The notes under the pieces are model-generated. The model had not been told where the DNA came from. It made no database searches and saw only the letters and a list, made by a program, of their open reading frames with translations. Source: Formosa algae (GTDB lineage: Bacteria > Bacteroidota > Bacteroidia > Flavobacteriales > Flavobacteriaceae). From it: a DNA stretch of 64,000 bases. Every line of letters begins with the position of its first letter. Position 1 is the first letter of the stretch. The stretch is from positions 186,001 to 250,000 of the forward strand of contig NZ_LMAK01000014.1 of assembly GCF_001439665.1 (NCBI RefSeq), given 5' to 3'. This document shows positions 32,778 through 42,685 of the stretch, one piece after another. A program made the position numbers and the translations under genes.

Positions 32778-33797
32778 CTAAAGTTCAATAAATTCCTCAT
32801 CACTTAAAGTTTTTAAGAATGCGATAAGATTTTCTTTTTCTGTATCTGTAAGCGGAATTCTGTTTTCATTTTCTTTTAAAATCGGATCGAGATTATCGGC
32901 ATCTAAAACGCCTGCATCTAAATAATCTAATAGATCTGTTAAGCTTTGAAACTGACCGAAACTTCCGTAAGGAGCTGTATATTCAATATTTCTTAGCGAT
33001 GGGACGCGGAAACTCATATAATCGTCTAACTCTAAAGAGACTCTAGCGCGTCCGCCCTCTTCGGTATCTGGATTTAAAGGAAATCCAATATTTCTAAAAC
33101 TTTGGTCGGTAAATAATTCGGTACTGTGACAACTGATGCATTTATCTTGAAAGACAGTATACCCAGCGGCTTCTTGTTCTGTAAACGTTTCGCCTTCTTC
33201 TCGTTTTACTTTATCGTATTTACTGTTAGCAGATATTAAGGTGTACTCGTATTGGGCAATACTATTATAAATCCCATCTGCGGTAATCCCTTCTCCATTA
33301 AAAGCCTTGTTAAACAGTTCTTCATAAGAACCTTCGGCTTCAAGTTTAGCAATTACTTCTAAAATTGATGAATCCATTTCTTCATAAGTTATAATAGGTA
33401 CTAATGGCTGATCTTCTAATTGTAGTTTACTTCCGTCCCAATTATAAAAATTCATAAATGCCATGTTTTGTATAGAAGGTGCGTTTCGAAGTCCGATGCG
33501 GCCTTCTATTCCAATTCCTTTTGCATTGTGATCTGCAAAGGCATTTTCTTGCATATGGCAACTCGCGCACGAGATGGTATTATCTGCACTCAATAAGGTT
33601 TCATTAAATAGTTTCTCTCCCAATTCTACGCCATAAACAGTAGGTACATTAGTATATACTGTACTATTAAATTCTGGAAAACCGAAAGGAATATCTATGG
33701 TGACTTCAGAGTTAACGTAAGACACAATTTCCGAACTATCGTCACTACACCCAAATACTATTAAAAGTAGGGCAATATGTCTTAAGATGTTTTTCAT
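32778..33797 (-). CDS. diheme cytochrome c peroxidase family, MbnH/MauG-like lipoprotein
   Basis: 339 residues; N-terminal lipobox VFGC. Two heme-binding CxxCH motifs: CASCH (Cys77, Cys80, His81) and CISCH (Cys220, Cys223, His224), the spacing of the bacterial cytochrome c peroxidase/MauG superfamily. It is the gene next to MbnP on the same strand. In methanotrophs MbnH of this family oxidises a Trp of MbnP to kynurenine, which then takes part in copper binding. By neighbourhood I call this the MbnH partner rather than an H2O2-scavenging peroxidase. A hairpin lies in the 73-base gap to MbnP. Confidence 0.85.
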   Translation of the reverse strand: MKNILRHIALLLIVFGCSDDSSEIVSYVNSEVTIDIPFGFPEFNSTVYTNVPTVYGVELGEKLFNETLLSADNTISCASCHMQENAFADHNAKGIGIEGRIGLRNAPSIQNMAFMNFYNWDGSKLQLEDQPLVPIITYEEMDSSILEVIAKLEAEGSYEELFNKAFNGEGITADGIYNSIAQYEYTLISANSKYDKVKREEGETFTEQEAAGYTVFQDKCISCHSTELFTDQSFRNIGFPLNPDTEEGGRARVSLELDDYMSFRVPSLRNIEYTAPYGSFGQFQSLTDLLDYLDAGVLDADNLDPILKENENRIPLTDTEKENLIAFLKTLSDEEFIEL

Positions 33798-33824
33798 GTT
33801 TATGGTTTAGAGAGACTAAATTAA

Positions 33825-33855
33825 GAGTCGGCTAAATGTATTTTATAGCCGACTC
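33825..33855 (-). other. intercistronic hairpin between mbnP-like and mbnH-like genes
   Basis: GAGTCGGCTA / TAGCCGACTC, ten base pairs around an 11-base loop, without a strong T-run. It could stabilise or partly terminate the mRNA so that MbnP is made in excess of the diheme enzyme. Confidence 0.55.
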
Positions 33856-33870
33856 CTAAGATGTTTTGTA

Positions 33871-34734
33871 TTAGTTTTCTACTTCAATGATAGAGAACAT
33901 TCCAGTGATATCTGTAGTTTCATTTCCACCAATATTATCTACAAACTTCTCCATTTCTGTTGCTGTATGTGCACTTGGAGTAGCATTATTAGTAATATCT
34001 GATGTAGTGACTAAAGTAATGCTATAGCTGTTTCCGCTTAATAAATAATCAAAGTCAGCTTCAATTTTAATTGTCGGTCCGTTGCTTCCAACAACAGCAG
34101 TAGTTGGTAAGTCTAAGGTGATATCTCTATACGCATCTACACCTTGTGTATAACTACCTTCTTCTCCTTCAAGGGTACTTCCTGAATGGAAAGACAATTC
34201 TTTGTTATCTGTATCGTAAAACCCTTCAATTTTAGTAAAACGATATCCTGTTCCCCATTCCCAGTGCATCTCTGTATCGTTTGCTCCAGCAGTTGCATAA
34301 AATTCAGGGAAACTAACTTCGTCTAAAGTGTTTAAATCAGATCTTACACCTAATCCAAATTTAATTTGGCTGTACTCATCTGTAGGAATATCACTTAAAA
34401 CATATTGTAAAGTCTCTTTTTTAGATTGGTCTACTACGGTAGCACCAGTATCTAAATTGTTGATATTGTAAGGAATTTCTGTGCCGTCTGTTTTAATTAA
34501 ACGAATGTTACTAATTACATATTTTAATTCTGCAAAGTGGTGTACTTGTCCTTGATCTGAAGTGTTTACTGTAGCTTCTGTAGATGTGTCGTCTCCTAAT
34601 ACAATTGTGGTTCCAGAGAAAGTGTTTGTAAATTCTAAGGTCACTTCATTTGCTACGGGCATATCGTCATCACTACACGATAAAATGGATAATGATGCGC
34701 ATACTAACAAAGCATAAATTTTAAGATTTTTCAT
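33871..34734 (-). CDS. MbnP-family copper-binding lipoprotein
   Basis: 287 residues; lipobox ILSC with Cys near 20 and an SDDD tail. The domain reads VTLEFTNTFSGTTIVLGDD, then HHFAELKYVISNIRLIKTDG and DIPTDEYSQIKFGLGVRSDL, the MbnP order (F...l.y.iSni.l...dG; i..G.g...d). Trp158 and Trp160 in MHWEWGTGYRF are the only tryptophans and lie in the family's conserved block, so one of them is the likely residue for kynurenine formation by the diheme partner. A His-rich copper site would include HHFAE. Part of the copper locus with the TonB receptor upstream. Confidence 0.88.
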   Translation of the reverse strand: MKNLKIYALLVCASLSILSCSDDDMPVANEVTLEFTNTFSGTTIVLGDDTSTEATVNTSDQGQVHHFAELKYVISNIRLIKTDGTEIPYNINNLDTGATVVDQSKKETLQYVLSDIPTDEYSQIKFGLGVRSDLNTLDEVSFPEFYATAGANDTEMHWEWGTGYRFTKIEGFYDTDNKELSFHSGSTLEGEEGSYTQGVDAYRDITLDLPTTAVVGSNGPTIKIEADFDYLLSGNSYSITLVTTSDITNNATPSAHTATEMEKFVDNIGGNETTDITGMFSIIEVEN

Positions 34735-34774
34735 TTTTTTTGATTTAATAGTTGATTTGAATTTTGGGTTTGTG

Positions 34775-36760
34775 TTATAAATTAATTTTTAGAGATGTAA
34801 AGATATTACGTCCCATTCTTGGGATATTTCCCCAGTCTGCATACGTACTGTAATACGTGTTAAATACATTTTCGGCACCTACTTGTAAGACTGTTTTTTT
34901 GTTTTTAATAAAAAAGGTGTAATCTGCAGAAACGTTCCAATTGGTATAAGACGGTGTTTCGTCTTCACCATATTCTGGACTGTAGTCTATTTGTTTTAAA
35001 TCGCCATTAAGTGCTGTTAAGATTCCGAATTTCTGATAAGAAAAATGTAACGAGGTTTGATAACTTAACGGACGGATAAAGGGTAAATTATTTTTATTTT
35101 CATCTAATCCTCTAGCATAGGTTAAGGTCCCTTTCCAATGTAAATTTTGTAAAATGCTATAATCTGCACTTACAGAAAAATTGAATAAAGTAGCGTGATC
35201 TAAAGAGGTGTAGCCTTTAACACCAACCGACTGATAATTCATTGGACTTCCTGAACTAAGTATTCTACCAATAATATAATTCTGAATATAGAAATAGTTT
35301 ACTTTAGCTTGAATATTTCCTTTTGCATGTGTAAAACCTGCACTAGCATTGGCCTCGTAAGACACTTCGTTTTCCAAATCTGGATCTCCTATATAATCAT
35401 ATCTATCAAAGCTATTGTAGATATAATAGCCATAACCTTCGGAAACCGATGGCGCTCTATGTCCGTAACCACCACCTGCAGAAAAATCGAATCCTCCAGT
35501 GTTTAGTTGGTAAGTGGTATATAAGTTTGGTAGAAAACGGGTTTTTTCTTGAGAAGCTCCAGGATGGAAAATACGGTTGAATTCTACATATTTTGAATAG
35601 TTATAATTTACACCTAAAGTCCCACCAAAAAGCAACTGACTATGAGCAGAGATGTCCCAAGAATTTGTCATAGATAATCCTGCATAGCGTGTTGTTACCC
35701 AAGGCCAACTGTAAGCAAACATAGTTGTTTCGCTATAGTCTTGCGGATACATACGCATTTCTGCAATAGATAAATTATCGTAAGCATTAAGCTGTATTTC
35801 TGATGCATAATTTTCGGAATTTAAATTTATTTTAGACACTAAACCATAGGTTGTGCTCCAACCTGGCATATCCATATGCACTAAGTTTTCTGGACGAGTG
35901 GTATCGTCCATATAATGCTCTATAGCGTTAAAATATAATTTAGTATCCCAAACTTTTATCAGTTTGTCTTCAAAAAACTGCTTGTAAGCTACAGAAGTTA
36001 TCAGGGCTCTAGATAGCGATAAATCCATAGGTAAGGCAGGATATCCTACATCATTAGCTCTATCAAAAATAGCATCGACACGTACCGAAGATAAGTCACT
36101 TGTTTTATAAGCCAACCCTAAAGACGTATTGAATTTAGTAAATTGAGAGTGGTCTACTTCATCATTATTCCCATCGGTATAATTTTTAGCTTTTCTAAAC
36201 GAAATACTTCCATCTGCTACGAGTTTTTCACTGGAATATGATACATTTCCAAGATTAAAGAACTGGTTGTTATTAAACTCGTAACCGGCTTGATAGGCAC
36301 CATCCCATGTGTTTTTAGTACCGAAAGCAGTACTTTTTCGTTTTAAGTCTATACTCCCGGCTACTGTTGCACCGTGTAAACTACCCTGTTGCCCAGATTT
36401 AATATCAATTTCAGATAAATTATTGCTTTCTACATACGAGGTTACAGGATCCATTTTATCTGTACAAGCTCCAAAAACATGCATGCCATCAATAGTGACT
36501 AAAGAACGCTCTGTACTCATATTATTTAAAAGCGGTTCCCATGCATAAGCTCCACGTTTTATAAAGCTTATATTATCAGACGATGCTAAAAACTCATCTA
36601 CAGAAACAGCCATTTTCATATCTGTTTCAATTTTGGTTTTCTTAGCTGCAATAACAAGAACTTCGTCTAAAAGCACATCAGAACTATCCCTAACGATGGG
36701 TGTGTTTTGTGCTTGAACAAAGCCTCCTAAAAGCAGTAAGATTAGTGTAAGTTGTCTCAT
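34775..36760 (-). CDS. TonB-dependent receptor, OprC/NosA-like copper transporter
   Basis: 661 residues from the ATG at 36760 (MRQLTLILLLLGGFVQAQ, a signal peptide), four bases after the preceding stop. Plug domain about 40-160 with LDEVLVIAAKK as TonB box region, then a 22-strand barrel ending in ...RMGRNIFTSLKINL. In the plug FGACTDKMDPVTSYVE holds Cys99-x3-Met103, and IEHYMDDTTRP in the barrel holds His282-x-Met284. OprC of Pseudomonas binds copper through a CxxxM and an HxM pair in equivalent regions, so copper is the probable cargo. The neighbouring MbnP, diheme and YtkA-like genes fit this. Confidence 0.9.
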   Translation of the reverse strand: MRQLTLILLLLGGFVQAQNTPIVRDSSDVLLDEVLVIAAKKTKIETDMKMAVSVDEFLASSDNISFIKRGAYAWEPLLNNMSTERSLVTIDGMHVFGACTDKMDPVTSYVESNNLSEIDIKSGQQGSLHGATVAGSIDLKRKSTAFGTKNTWDGAYQAGYEFNNNQFFNLGNVSYSSEKLVADGSISFRKAKNYTDGNNDEVDHSQFTKFNTSLGLAYKTSDLSSVRVDAIFDRANDVGYPALPMDLSLSRALITSVAYKQFFEDKLIKVWDTKLYFNAIEHYMDDTTRPENLVHMDMPGWSTTYGLVSKINLNSENYASEIQLNAYDNLSIAEMRMYPQDYSETTMFAYSWPWVTTRYAGLSMTNSWDISAHSQLLFGGTLGVNYNYSKYVEFNRIFHPGASQEKTRFLPNLYTTYQLNTGGFDFSAGGGYGHRAPSVSEGYGYYIYNSFDRYDYIGDPDLENEVSYEANASAGFTHAKGNIQAKVNYFYIQNYIIGRILSSGSPMNYQSVGVKGYTSLDHATLFNFSVSADYSILQNLHWKGTLTYARGLDENKNNLPFIRPLSYQTSLHFSYQKFGILTALNGDLKQIDYSPEYGEDETPSYTNWNVSADYTFFIKNKKTVLQVGAENVFNTYYSTYADWGNIPRMGRNIFTSLKINL

Positions 36761-36764
36761 CGCT

Positions 36765-37688
36765 CTAGAATAAAATATCGATATACAGTTCGCTACGTTC
36801 ACCTTCAATTCCTGGTGTAAATTCTGTAGAAACTTCAGTACCTTTTATCGTGTTTCCATCTGCATCTTGAAAAATAAAATTCAAGGTCCAATTCCCTGTC
36901 ATGGTATAATTTACTACACCGTGATATAGGCTATCTGTGTCTTGAGTTAAGTCTTCATTATTAGGTGAAGAATGATTTCCCATAGACGGTTCTGGCATTC
37001 TTGGGTCTAACACTAACGTATGATTTTGAACTATAGAGTAGGAGTACTGCGTAAGATCTGGGAATGTTCCAGCTTCACTTTCAGGCGTATTGTACTTGTA
37101 AATACCGGCAACCAGATCATTTTCCGACACTCCTGGACTTTGCGGAGCCACTAGCGCAATAATATATTGTTCCTGGTCATTTCCAGTAAAGGCAGTCATA
37201 TTAAGATTCATATTGGTTTGTTCTTCAACAGTAAAGGGTTGATTAATAGCGTACGTTTGCGAACTCTCCTGAAAATCGATATATGCCTGCCAGCTTACTG
37301 TACTATCACTTTCACTTGTAAATACCACATAGCCTAAATAATAGCCTTCTGTAGCATCGTATTCTAAATTATATTGGTGCGGACAAGAACTTTTATTTCC
37401 GTTAGCATCGGTCTGAATAGGTAAAAAAGTAACCGCTACATCTTCTAAATTTGTAAGCGTTTCTGAATTACTAATTTTTAGATGAATTTCGTTATAGCCC
37501 TTATAAAGGGTTCCGTTTAAGGCTTCAATACTAATGGTGTAATCTCCACTATTTGTAGTTGTTACCTCTTCGAATTCTATATATTCTGTAGTATCTGTAC
37601 TTAATTCTGCCTCGTAATCTGTTTTCTCTACGGTACACGCTGTGAGCACCACGAAAACCACCATTACAATACCTTGTAAAAGTTTCAT
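36765..37688 (-). CDS. YtkA-like domain lipoprotein of the copper locus
   Basis: 307 residues; lipobox LTAC with Cys near 18. The mature protein has two Ig-like halves. The second holds LDPRMPEPSMGNHSSPNNED and then YHGVVNYTMTGNWTLNFIFQ, the Met/His-rich pattern of YtkA-like and FixH-type copper-binding domains (MP.MgH.ssPn.......Y.g.v.ft.tG.W). Met and His in that stretch suit copper(I). It precedes the copper TonB receptor by four bases, so the two are co-made. The first half, with SCPHQY and two conserved-looking Trp, may be a degenerate second copy. Confidence 0.85.
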   Translation of the reverse strand: MKLLQGIVMVVFVVLTACTVEKTDYEAELSTDTTEYIEFEEVTTTNSGDYTISIEALNGTLYKGYNEIHLKISNSETLTNLEDVAVTFLPIQTDANGNKSSCPHQYNLEYDATEGYYLGYVVFTSESDSTVSWQAYIDFQESSQTYAINQPFTVEEQTNMNLNMTAFTGNDQEQYIIALVAPQSPGVSENDLVAGIYKYNTPESEAGTFPDLTQYSYSIVQNHTLVLDPRMPEPSMGNHSSPNNEDLTQDTDSLYHGVVNYTMTGNWTLNFIFQDADGNTIKGTEVSTEFTPGIEGERSELYIDILF

Positions 37689-38019: not shown

Positions 38020-38388
38020 CTATACGAGAGGTGGATGAAATACAAAATTTACATAGTGGAAGTTGTAAATTTTACTGTAAAAAGATGCTGTTTTTAGTGG
38101 CTGTTCTTTAGGAAAGAACAAATCATAATTAAATTTTGAGTTCTGAAAGAAAACTAACGTATTTTCGAAAGAAATAGATCCTCCTTTATCGTTATTCCCT
38201 TTTTCAGTATCTGAAGCTTTAGCAAGTTGTTCTTTTAAATGACATTTTCCGTTACATTGCAGTTCGGGTACGTCTTTATTTTCACAAAGTTCGTTTACTA
38301 TATAATCGTAAAATGCAGCGTATTCCACTAAAGGGATTAGTGGTTTTACCATTAGAAATATTGCTAAAAGTAGACTTGCTGTTTTCAC
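38020..38388 (-). CDS. small CNGKC-motif protein of the copper locus
   Basis: 122 residues. A hydrophobic N terminus (SLLLAIFLMVKPLIPLVEYA) acts as membrane anchor or signal. The centre is VNELCENKDVPELQCNGKCH, with Cys-x10-Cys-x3-Cys and a following His, then KEQLAKA. This ELxCNGKCxL signature recurs in Bacteroidota beside copper-related TonB receptors, as far as I recall. The tail NFHYVNFVFHPPLV has further His and aromatic residues. A copper chaperone or sensor would fit, but this is inferred only from motif and place. Confidence 0.75.
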   Translation of the reverse strand: MKTASLLLAIFLMVKPLIPLVEYAAFYDYIVNELCENKDVPELQCNGKCHLKEQLAKASDTEKGNNDKGGSISFENTLVFFQNSKFNYDLFFPKEQPLKTASFYSKIYNFHYVNFVFHPPLV

Positions 38389-41635: not shown

Positions 41636-41950
41636 TTGAACAAAGAAAATAACTGTCCGCTTAATTACACCATGAATTTAATAGGTACAAAATGGAAGCC
41701 TTTAATATTATTTCATCTTTTAGAAGGCGATTTACGTTCTGGAGTTTTACAAAAACATATTTCTGGTATATCTAATAAAATGTTTACACAAACCGTTAGA
41801 GAATTAGAAAAAGACGGTTTGCTTTGCAGAACTGTGTATCCTGTTGTTCCACCAAAAGTGGAATATGGTTTAACGGCTCGTGGGAAATCTTTAGAAACTA
41901 TTTTAAGAGGTCTGGATGCTTGGGGAGAAAAAGATTGGAAACAGTTATAA
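41636..41950 (+). CDS. HxlR-family transcriptional regulator
   Basis: 104 residues starting at TTG 41636: MNKENNCPLNYTMNLIGTKW is the standard family N terminus, which supports this start. Cys7 sits where redox or aldehyde-sensing Cys occurs in HypR/YodB relatives. The winged helix follows with KHISGISNKMFTQTVRELEK and the wing VYPVVPPKVEYGLTARGKSL. Divergent from the VOC protein gene, and convergent with the arsenic operon. Confidence 0.9.
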   Translation: MNKENNCPLNYTMNLIGTKWKPLILFHLLEGDLRSGVLQKHISGISNKMFTQTVRELEKDGLLCRTVYPVVPPKVEYGLTARGKSLETILRGLDAWGEKDWKQL

Positions 41951-41977: not shown

Positions 41978-42685
41978 CTAAAAGAATCCCATAAATATAC
42001 TAACATAATACACACCTGTAAGTATAAAGACAATGCCCGCTAGAAACCGCATGATTTTCTCAATTTTTGTAATTCTACTGTAAAAAACACCAATTTTTCC
42101 AGCCGTAAAAGCCAATAGATAGGTGAATAAAATGACAGGTAATCCGGTTCCAAAAGCGAAAATTACAGGTAAATATAAGCCGTCTGCAGAAGTAATTGTC
42201 ATGGGAATAAGCATACCAAAAAACAGAGCGCCACTATATGGACAAAAAGCTAATGCGAATACCACACCAATTATAAAAGCACCTAAAAGCCCTTGATCTT
42301 TAAATTTATTGGTGAATTTTTCTTGAATATTAGATGTCTTGAAAAAAGGAATTTTAATAACGTTTAGCATGATGAGTCCAATAAGAATTAATAACGGACC
42401 TAAATATTTTTCGCCATGCTGATTAAAGAACCGTGCCACATGAAATTTATTGGCTCCGAAATATAAAATTATTCCAATAACCGTGTAACTAAATGCTCTT
42501 CCTAAAGCATAGAGTATGCCACTTAAAAACACGTTACGCTTGCTAGAAATCTGTTTAGAGATATATGCCGTTGCCGTGATATTGGTCGCTAATGGGCACG
42601 GACTAATAGCTGTCATTAGTCCGAGTACAAAAGCCGATAATATGGGAATGTTGTATTGCGCTATTAACAATTCTAATACATCCAT
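41978..42685 (-). CDS. ArsG-family/CcdA-like membrane transporter
   Basis: 235 residues, six hydrophobic segments. MTAISPCPLATNITATAYIS near residue 30 and FALAFCPYSGALFFGMLI in the middle hold paired Cys-Pro motifs in membrane helices, as in CcdA/DsbD and in the ArsG group linked to arsenic operons. It could move electrons or arsenical across the membrane; family labelling as an aromatic-arsenical efflux permease is by association. Last gene of the seven-gene ars operon, contiguous with the ArsF-like gene. Confidence 0.8.
   Translation of the reverse strand: MDVLELLIAQYNIPILSAFVLGLMTAISPCPLATNITATAYISKQISSKRNVFLSGILYALGRAFSYTVIGIILYFGANKFHVARFFNQHGEKYLGPLLILIGLIMLNVIKIPFFKTSNIQEKFTNKFKDQGLLGAFIIGVVFALAFCPYSGALFFGMLIPMTITSADGLYLPVIFAFGTGLPVILFTYLLAFTAGKIGVFYSRITKIEKIMRFLAGIVFILTGVYYVSIFMGFF

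Follow-up and report, generated by a model that had tools for sequence, protein, structure and literature searches.

The locus described here raises the question whether a copper protein and its partner enzyme, known as a pair from methanotrophs, can be taken to work in the same way in a flavobacterium whose enzyme lacks a hallmark residue. The locus lies in a stretch of 64,000 nucleotides of the Formosa algae genome (contig NZ_LMAK01000014.1, positions 186,001 to 250,000), which is referred to as the window. As the sequence-only reading of this DNA had claimed, the list of open reading frames (ORFs) places genes for a diheme enzyme, the lipoprotein MbnP and a TonB-dependent receptor in tandem on the minus strand. 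The order of transcription is leader, lipoprotein, receptor, MbnP, diheme enzyme; the leader and lipoprotein genes belong to the same operon and had been left outside that reading. We lean slightly towards regarding it as a conserved cell-envelope operon for copper acquisition, in which MbnP would receive a kynurenine from an enzyme with altered ligation of its second heme.

The identity of the two paired proteins follows from profile searches. The MbnP of the window scores 116.3 bits against Pfam family PF20243 (cut-off 27) and the enzyme 159.9 bits against PF03150, CCP_MauG (cut-off 25.6), which confirms that a real MbnP adjoins a MauG-family enzyme. The AlphaFold2 model of MbnP, made from 49 sequences with a predicted local distance difference test score (pLDDT) of 85.0, matches the Methylosinus MbnP structure 7l6g with a Z score of 18.0 and a root-mean-square deviation of 3.4 over 233 aligned residues; the next entry has a Z score of 5.9. 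Foldseek found 7l6g with the same model at an E-value of 4.9e-9. The MbnP sequence alone retrieved just an unrelated chain from the PDB (E 0.52), and an MbnP profile reaches 7l6g at E 0.0027. The four-cysteine motif named in the title of 7l6g was not found in the MbnP of the window, in which cysteines occur solely at positions 12 and 20.

A 2021 PNAS paper is said to have found that the first tryptophan of a WxW motif is turned into kynurenine in Methylosinus MbnP and that a methionine and a histidine hold Cu(I). In the alignment, residues M156, W158, W160 and H183 of the window's MbnP are in register with the methanotroph residues. In the comparison with Proteobacteria and one cyanobacterium, both tryptophans and the histidine are present in 8/8 MbnP sequences and the methionine in 7/8. 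The locus belongs to a group called clade B, comprising 94 loci with 87 distinct enzymes and 91 receptors, 84 of them distinct; seven loci are counted twice. Here W158, W160 and H183 each occur in 94/94 MbnP sequences and M156 in 92/94, and the two tryptophans are the only ones in 85/94. The Flavobacteriaceae MbnP set has Trp at position 158 in 145/149 and His at position 183 in 146/149 cases. The sequence-only reading had narrowed the modification target to two tryptophans. The residue count agrees, W158 and W160 being the sole tryptophans of the window's MbnP, and the alignment with the methanotroph WxW sharpens the choice to W158, the first of the motif, as the expected kynurenine target. 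By the same alignment, M156 and H183 are the probable Cu(I) ligands.

The claim that the pair acts as in methanotroph loci could not be upheld for the enzyme. The enzyme of the window contains two CXXCH motifs (C77-H81 and C220-H224) and retains W120, Q130, P134 and E140, the last three being the counterparts of Gln103, Pro107 and a Glu of MauG. This peroxidatic site is conserved in clade B, with H81, Q130, P134, E140 and both CXXCH motifs in 94/94 enzymes and W120 in 93/94. Where other enzymes have PYMHDGR and a tyrosine, the window's enzyme has PYGSFGQ (276-282), Y292 and L293. The clade B motif is PYGSFGQ in 92 and PYGSYGQ in 2 of the 94 enzymes, a count that is biased since 80 of the 94 loci are the best 80 of 191 matches of a GTDB scan with PYGSFGQF as one of its two patterns; residue 293 and MbnP lay outside the scan patterns. 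In the family sample, which is free of this bias, 14/14 clade B loci show the motif and no Tyr. PYMHDGR is present in 135/135 other flavobacterial or related MbnH. The column of the axial ligand of the second heme (293) contains Phe in 68, Leu in 26 and Tyr in 0/94 clade B enzymes, and Tyr in 135/135 of the others. None of these 229 enzymes, a set that leaves out the short loci from L235 on, mixes the motif state of one group with the column 293 state of the other. H279 is gone in 94/94 clade B enzymes. The MbnH of two Methylocystis, Pseudoalteromonas, Diaphorobacter and one cyanobacterium all have PYMHDGS and the tyrosine (5/5), and the Methylosinus MbnH structure 6e1c agrees with them.

Column 293 is read as the axial-ligand position for three reasons. 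The second heme is ligated by Met-His in bacterial cytochrome c peroxidases (bCCPs) and by Tyr-His in MauG and BthA (PMC6405878; this and the other cited papers are represented here by excerpts), the bCCP 3o5c aligns a Met in this column, and the spacing from PYxHxG to the column is equal in the alignment. The bCCPs 3hq9 and 2c1u align likewise if the gap placed there by the program is ignored. Tyr292, one residue before the column, is found in 94/94 clade B enzymes, with His or Phe in 135/135 others, and Met261 occurs in 90/94 clade B enzymes. Both residues are candidate replacement ligands of the second heme. The AlphaFold2 model of the enzyme, built from 14 clade B sequences, is poor (mean pLDDT 57.0, with residues 70-143 and 221-267 below 50), and its heme-ligand geometry is unreadable. 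Since the tyrosine and PYMHDG were looked for and are absent, the enzyme is not filed as a standard MbnH, yet it is descended from MbnH and is paired like MbnH. For a clade B enzyme without the axial-column Tyr and PYMHDGR, the methanotroph mechanism cannot be adopted as it stands.

In a tree of 88 enzymes, from which columns 278-282 and 292-293 were left out, the 27 clade B rows form one clade (100/100) that is nested in MbnH and has a stem of 0.93 changes per site. Its sister consists of four canonical rows (97/92), of which three come from a different family within the order and one from the same family. The MbnP tree (63 rows) likewise unites the 25 clade B rows (100/100), and four canonical rows adjoin them (99/96). 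The tyrosine and the motif were thus lost at one point of the tree. The root was set with two long peroxidases encoded in the genome of the window, each of them a long branch. Two long MauG-family peroxidases of about 605-625 residues were recorded in this genome as L033 (contig C14, 173908-174363) and L034 (contig C35, 42272-42697), and one of the two lies some 12 kb to the left of the window.

Taken by itself, the pair is nothing unusual. An MbnP was found in at least 179 of the 397 Flavobacteriaceae genomes of the sample, counted on a list of matches of at least about 96 bits, and conservation of the MbnP/MbnH pair far beyond methanobactin producers was reported in 2013 (PMC3621798). The statement of the sequence-only reading that no worked-out example exists outside methanotrophs is right insofar as no biochemical example was found, but the wide occurrence of the pair had been in print since that year, as far as the excerpt of PMC3621798 goes. 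MbnH directly adjoins MbnP in 30/30 first loci and in 116/120 further regions, which were taken for most of the listed matches. The four exceptions are L037 and L100, whose stretches show no MbnH, along with L142 and L143, where MbnH lies about 4.1 and 0.8 kb off. In clade B the two genes are adjacent in 94/94 loci. What sets the locus apart is a separate monophyletic enzyme clade beside an unchanged MbnP. The literature searched gave no account of the clade B enzyme or operon, although an earlier description cannot be excluded.

The other genes of the operon accompany the clade B pair closely. In the family sample, all five genes are present at 14/14 clade B loci; the lipoprotein and receptor genes are present in 78/80 named loci, which come from Formosa, Winogradskyella, Flavobacterium, Chryseobacterium, Sphingobacterium and Chitinophagaceae, among others. 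Because the order of leader, lipoprotein, receptor, MbnP and enzyme recurs and the lipoprotein and receptor are so regularly present, the gene set is not due to chance. Both exceptions are from Wenyingzhuangia (L171, L187), where receptor and lipoprotein are lacking and the clade B pair lies behind a canonical one, each pair having its own leader. No receptor or lipoprotein of the clade B type was found in 107 other wide regions, which reach up to about 8 kb to either side and some of which are cut by contig ends. In the phylum sample, 10/395 genomes, including that of the window, have an enzyme of more than 580 bits with the motif, the next score being 400. The 30 loci of this sample comprise 10 with the PYGSFGQ motif and no Tyr, 3 of which are also in the family sample, and 20 with PYMHDGR and Tyr. 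The counts leave out the window copies L001 and L032, loci L002, L003, L004 and L010 (taken again with wider flanks), the long peroxidases L033 and L034, and short or cut ORFs; the leader and gap counts include repeated loci.

The receptor ORF extends over 34775-36808 from a TTG start, and an internal ATG gives an end at 36760 and 661 residues, a length shared by several relatives. Its Plug domain scores 21.3 bits, just below the cut-off of 23.9. At E<=0.01 its only PDB matches are OprC chains, the best at 2e-7. OprC binds copper through CxxxM-HxM (PMC8610252), and the corresponding residues of the window's receptor are C99, M103, H282 and M284 (ATG numbering; 16 are added from the TTG), all four of which are conserved in 91/91 clade B receptors. 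By this predicted copper site the receptor is OprC-like, in agreement with the earlier proposal that it gives copper a route of entry. In the lipoprotein, the Met/His block listed in the table is conserved (92 copies). Surface lipoproteins of flavobacteria and Bacteroides carry acidic export signals after the lipid cysteine, such as SDDFE or SDDDD (PMC5080379). The window's MbnP has C20-SDDD at this place. Two or more acidic residues after the cysteine are found in 92/94 clade B MbnP, 66/94 enzymes and 1/92 lipoproteins, the copy of the window being without them. MbnP is therefore predicted to face the cell exterior, the enzyme perhaps as well, and the lipoprotein not.

The leader has a hydrophobic N terminus (judged by eye) and a CNGKC motif, and its Pro-Pro stands two residues ahead of the stop. 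Of 231 uncut leader copies, 225 have Pro-Pro among their final 12 residues, and 176 show a strict CxGxC pattern, with a spacing of 64-73 to Pro-Pro. The gap between leader and lipoprotein genes is 331 nucleotides in the window (median 292.5, n=90); the medians of the other gaps are -17 for lipoprotein-receptor (n=91), 43.5 for receptor-MbnP (n=80) and 48.5 for MbnP-enzyme (n=256). Two copper-sensing nascent peptides share these traits. CruR of Bordetella, with CXXC, RAPP near its end and a long gap, controls a TonB receptor, and its relatives also precede MbnPH-like genes (PMC9426467). CutF has CxxxC and a Pro-rich end, and many CutF-like proteins of Bacteroidota have already been listed (PMC9973294). 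At 122 residues the leader is within the limit of <170 given in the excerpt of PMC9973294, and it has CxxxC, PP and no Pfam family at E<=0.01. At E<=0.001, nothing in the window's genome matches DUF2946 (PF11162). The leader is thus CutF-like by most published rules and not a DUF2946 protein, and it may sense copper. Many of the remaining MbnP/MbnH pairs of flavobacteria, in clades A, C and D, also have a CutF-like leader before them. No intrinsic terminator was found on the minus strand in the gap between leader and lipoprotein genes; the sole terminator-like site lies elsewhere, on the plus strand. The 12 promoter-like sites, set beside 8.1 +- 2.5 in shuffles, are nothing to build on.

The leader family has two copies in the window's genome at E<=0.01. 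The second copy (L276, contig C14, 250300-250647), about 300 bases past the right end of the window, has CNGKC and ends in CFHPPRL. The gene directly after it encodes a further TonB receptor, whose HACPNRMDP and DHLM give a second site of the OprC type (CxxxM, HxM). In 41/80 named clade B loci the receptor and MbnP genes have a second, different leader-like gene between them (e.g. L157, 6640-7026); its product often has CHGKC and ends in FVPPPI, which suggests separate control of the MbnP-enzyme part.

Table 1. Genes of the copper operon in the window, in order of transcription.
Feature	Position in window	Strand	Evidence
Leader, CutF/CruR-like, 122 residues, GTG start	38020..38388	-	CNGKC, Pro-Pro; no Pfam family at E<=0.01
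Lipoprotein, 307 residues, weakly YtkA-like	36765..37688	-	PF13115 at E 0.0072, below cut-off; Met/His block LDPRMPEPSMGNHSSPNN
OprC-like TonB-dependent receptor, 661 residues	34775..36760	-	CxxxM-HxM site; OprC matches in the PDB
MbnP lipoprotein, 287 residues	33871..34734	-	PF20243; fold match to 7l6g; C20-SDDD; M156, W158, W160, H183
MbnH-like diheme enzyme, 339 residues, clade B	32778..33797	-	PF03150; residue counts; tree

Elsewhere in the window, an ArsG-family efflux permease is encoded at 41978-42685 on the minus strand (NF040495, 303.4 bits, above cut-off), with an HxlR-type regulator alongside at 41636-41950 on the plus strand.

We propose that at low copper the leader would let the operon be made. 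MbnP, placed on the surface beside the receptor, would bind Cu(I) at M156 and H183 next to W158 in the form of kynurenine and would hand the copper over to the receptor. The oxidation of W158 would be catalyzed by the clade B enzyme, whose peroxide-binding heme site is kept and whose second heme, without the usual tyrosine, would be ligated differently, with an open position or with Tyr292 or Met261 as ligand. The full form of the proposal is bolder and is put forward only tentatively, as a rather unlikely whole: a diheme clade would turn Trp of MbnP into kynurenine although no Tyr ligates its second heme, dispensing with the bis-Fe(IV) arrangement of the MauG type. In one operon, this enzyme would have been kept alongside an OprC-type receptor and a copper switch that acts as a nascent peptide, across several families of Bacteroidota.

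Several results weigh against this proposal. Kynurenine formation, copper binding and the copper response of the operon are all proposed from sequence. None of the three proteins reaches its NCBIfam equivalog cut-off: MbnP has 54.4 of the 140 bits of TIGR04052, the enzyme 193.9 of the 362.85 bits of TIGR04039, and the receptor 83.1 bits (E 1.9e-23) against the TonB-copper family TIGR01778, far below its 472.45 bits. The canonical flavobacterial pair of locus L008 fails as well, its MbnP with 55.1 and its enzyme with 229.6 bits, and the MbnP of Methylocystis iwaonis and Trichormus pass; the MbnP score therefore reflects the distance of the whole flavobacterial branch and not of the window's MbnP alone. 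In four loci of the NVP clade of MbnP (L073, L088, L096, L098), Phe stands for W158 and the second Trp is gone beside a canonical MbnH with Tyr and PYMHDGR, so a pair can persist without the target tryptophan. In L100, MbnP keeps its tryptophan without MbnH in the stretch, a clade B enzyme being encoded elsewhere in the genome. One case speaks for the link between the partners: the orphan MbnP of L037 (genome G252) has WxxW spacing and Gln for His183, and the best enzyme match of its genome is 191.5 bits, with no match of MbnH grade, the other five genomes searched giving 443.5 to 554. As further variants, most MbnP of the NVP clade have Val for the second Trp of WxW, and MbnP paralogues that lie beside a canonical pair in L129 (second pair) and L148 (first pair) keep WxW and have Glu for His183.

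Unchanged chemistry in clade B is also spoken against by results with Tyr-to-His variants: the bis-Fe(IV) signature is lost in MauG Y294H and BthA Y463H, and BthA keeps its peroxidase activity (PMC6405878). These results leave three readings, of which another ligation of the second heme is favoured. Canonical chemistry could be preserved if the axial tyrosine had shifted by one residue to Tyr292, the helix being re-registered by the change from PYMHDGR to PYGSFGQ. The strict presence of Y292 in clade B, set beside His or Phe in the others, fits this idea; however, the flanking residues V289, L/I290, D291 and G296 align without gaps, and Tyr292 should therefore point elsewhere unless the helix turns. 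The enzyme model is too poor to decide, and we regard the shift as a serious but unlikely option. It is quite unlikely, in our estimate, that kynurenine formation was lost altogether, the clade B enzyme serving as a peroxidase or in another oxidation and the tryptophan pair being kept for structure or for copper binding without modification. The absence of the tyrosine and of H279 in 94/94 enzymes, the long clade B stem and the peroxidase activity of BthA Y463H without its bis-Fe(IV) signature (PMC6405878) would agree with such a loss, but WxW, H183 and gene adjacency are invariant in 94/94 loci, and the MbnP of clade B likewise form a single clade, whose sister rows are of the same sort as those of the enzyme.

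Two further alternatives concern the purpose of the operon. It could serve protection by copper sequestration and not acquisition: no copper-dependent enzyme is encoded in the flanks, and CutF-like leaders also precede efflux genes (PMC9973294). We consider this improbable, as an inward OprC-type receptor is part of 78/80 loci and, according to PMC3912023, copper can repress CorA, the functional analogue that has been studied best. Service to nitrous oxide reductase, as was once proposed for NosA, is very improbable. The receptor is of the OprC/NosA kind, and NosZ (TIGR04246) is above cut-off in 5/14 clade B genomes, but the other 9/14, including that of the window, have no NosZ above cut-off; with only 5/14 genomes positive, it was dismissed as the role of the operon in general.

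The current understanding of MbnH and MauG builds on a Tyr-His heme and a partner heme, between which oxidising power is shared. Clade B offers a natural variant in which the tyrosine and the motif are lost and the presumed target tryptophan, the predicted copper ligands and the pairing are kept, so that the kynurenine status of its MbnP tests the need for the tyrosine. The operon also unites three copper devices known apart, the OprC site, the kynurenine copper protein and the CutF/CruR-like leader, and gives a concrete model of copper uptake in Bacteroidota.

Compared with the MbnP/MbnH loci of Methylosinus and Methylocystis, the window shares the gene pair, the MbnP fold, the register of MxWxW and His, the two CXXCH motifs and the peroxidatic residues. 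It differs in that its ORF list contains no methanobactin genes, its mature MbnP has no cysteine beyond the lipid cysteine, its enzyme lacks the tyrosine and PYMHDG, and its operon adds an OprC-type receptor and a leader. Other flavobacterial pairs (clades A, C and D) belong to the same families and also lie below the NCBIfam cut-offs (L008), but they keep Tyr293 and PYMHDGR (135/135), and none of their 107 regions showed a receptor or lipoprotein of the clade B type. MopE/SACCP and CorA/CorB of methanotrophs have a kynurenine copper site and a co-transcribed MauG-like cytochrome (PMC3912023), as is predicted for the window's pair; CorA and MopE are, by the account in the excerpt of PMC3621798, outside the MbnP sequence family, and their site has two His. 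BthA and MauG share the bCCP_MauG superfamily and the peroxidatic heme site with the clade B enzyme, but their second heme is Tyr-His ligated (PMC6405878) and clade B has no such Tyr. With OprC and NosA the receptor has CxxxM-HxM in common, differing in its score below the TIGR01778 cut-off, its flavobacterial origin and its tie to MbnP. Unlike CruR, the leader has no DUF2946 match, and ribosome stalling by it is putative; like CruR and CutF, it is a small protein with a pair of cysteines (CxxxC as in CutF; CXXC in CruR) and Pro-Pro near the C terminus, which stands at the head of a copper operon before a long gap.

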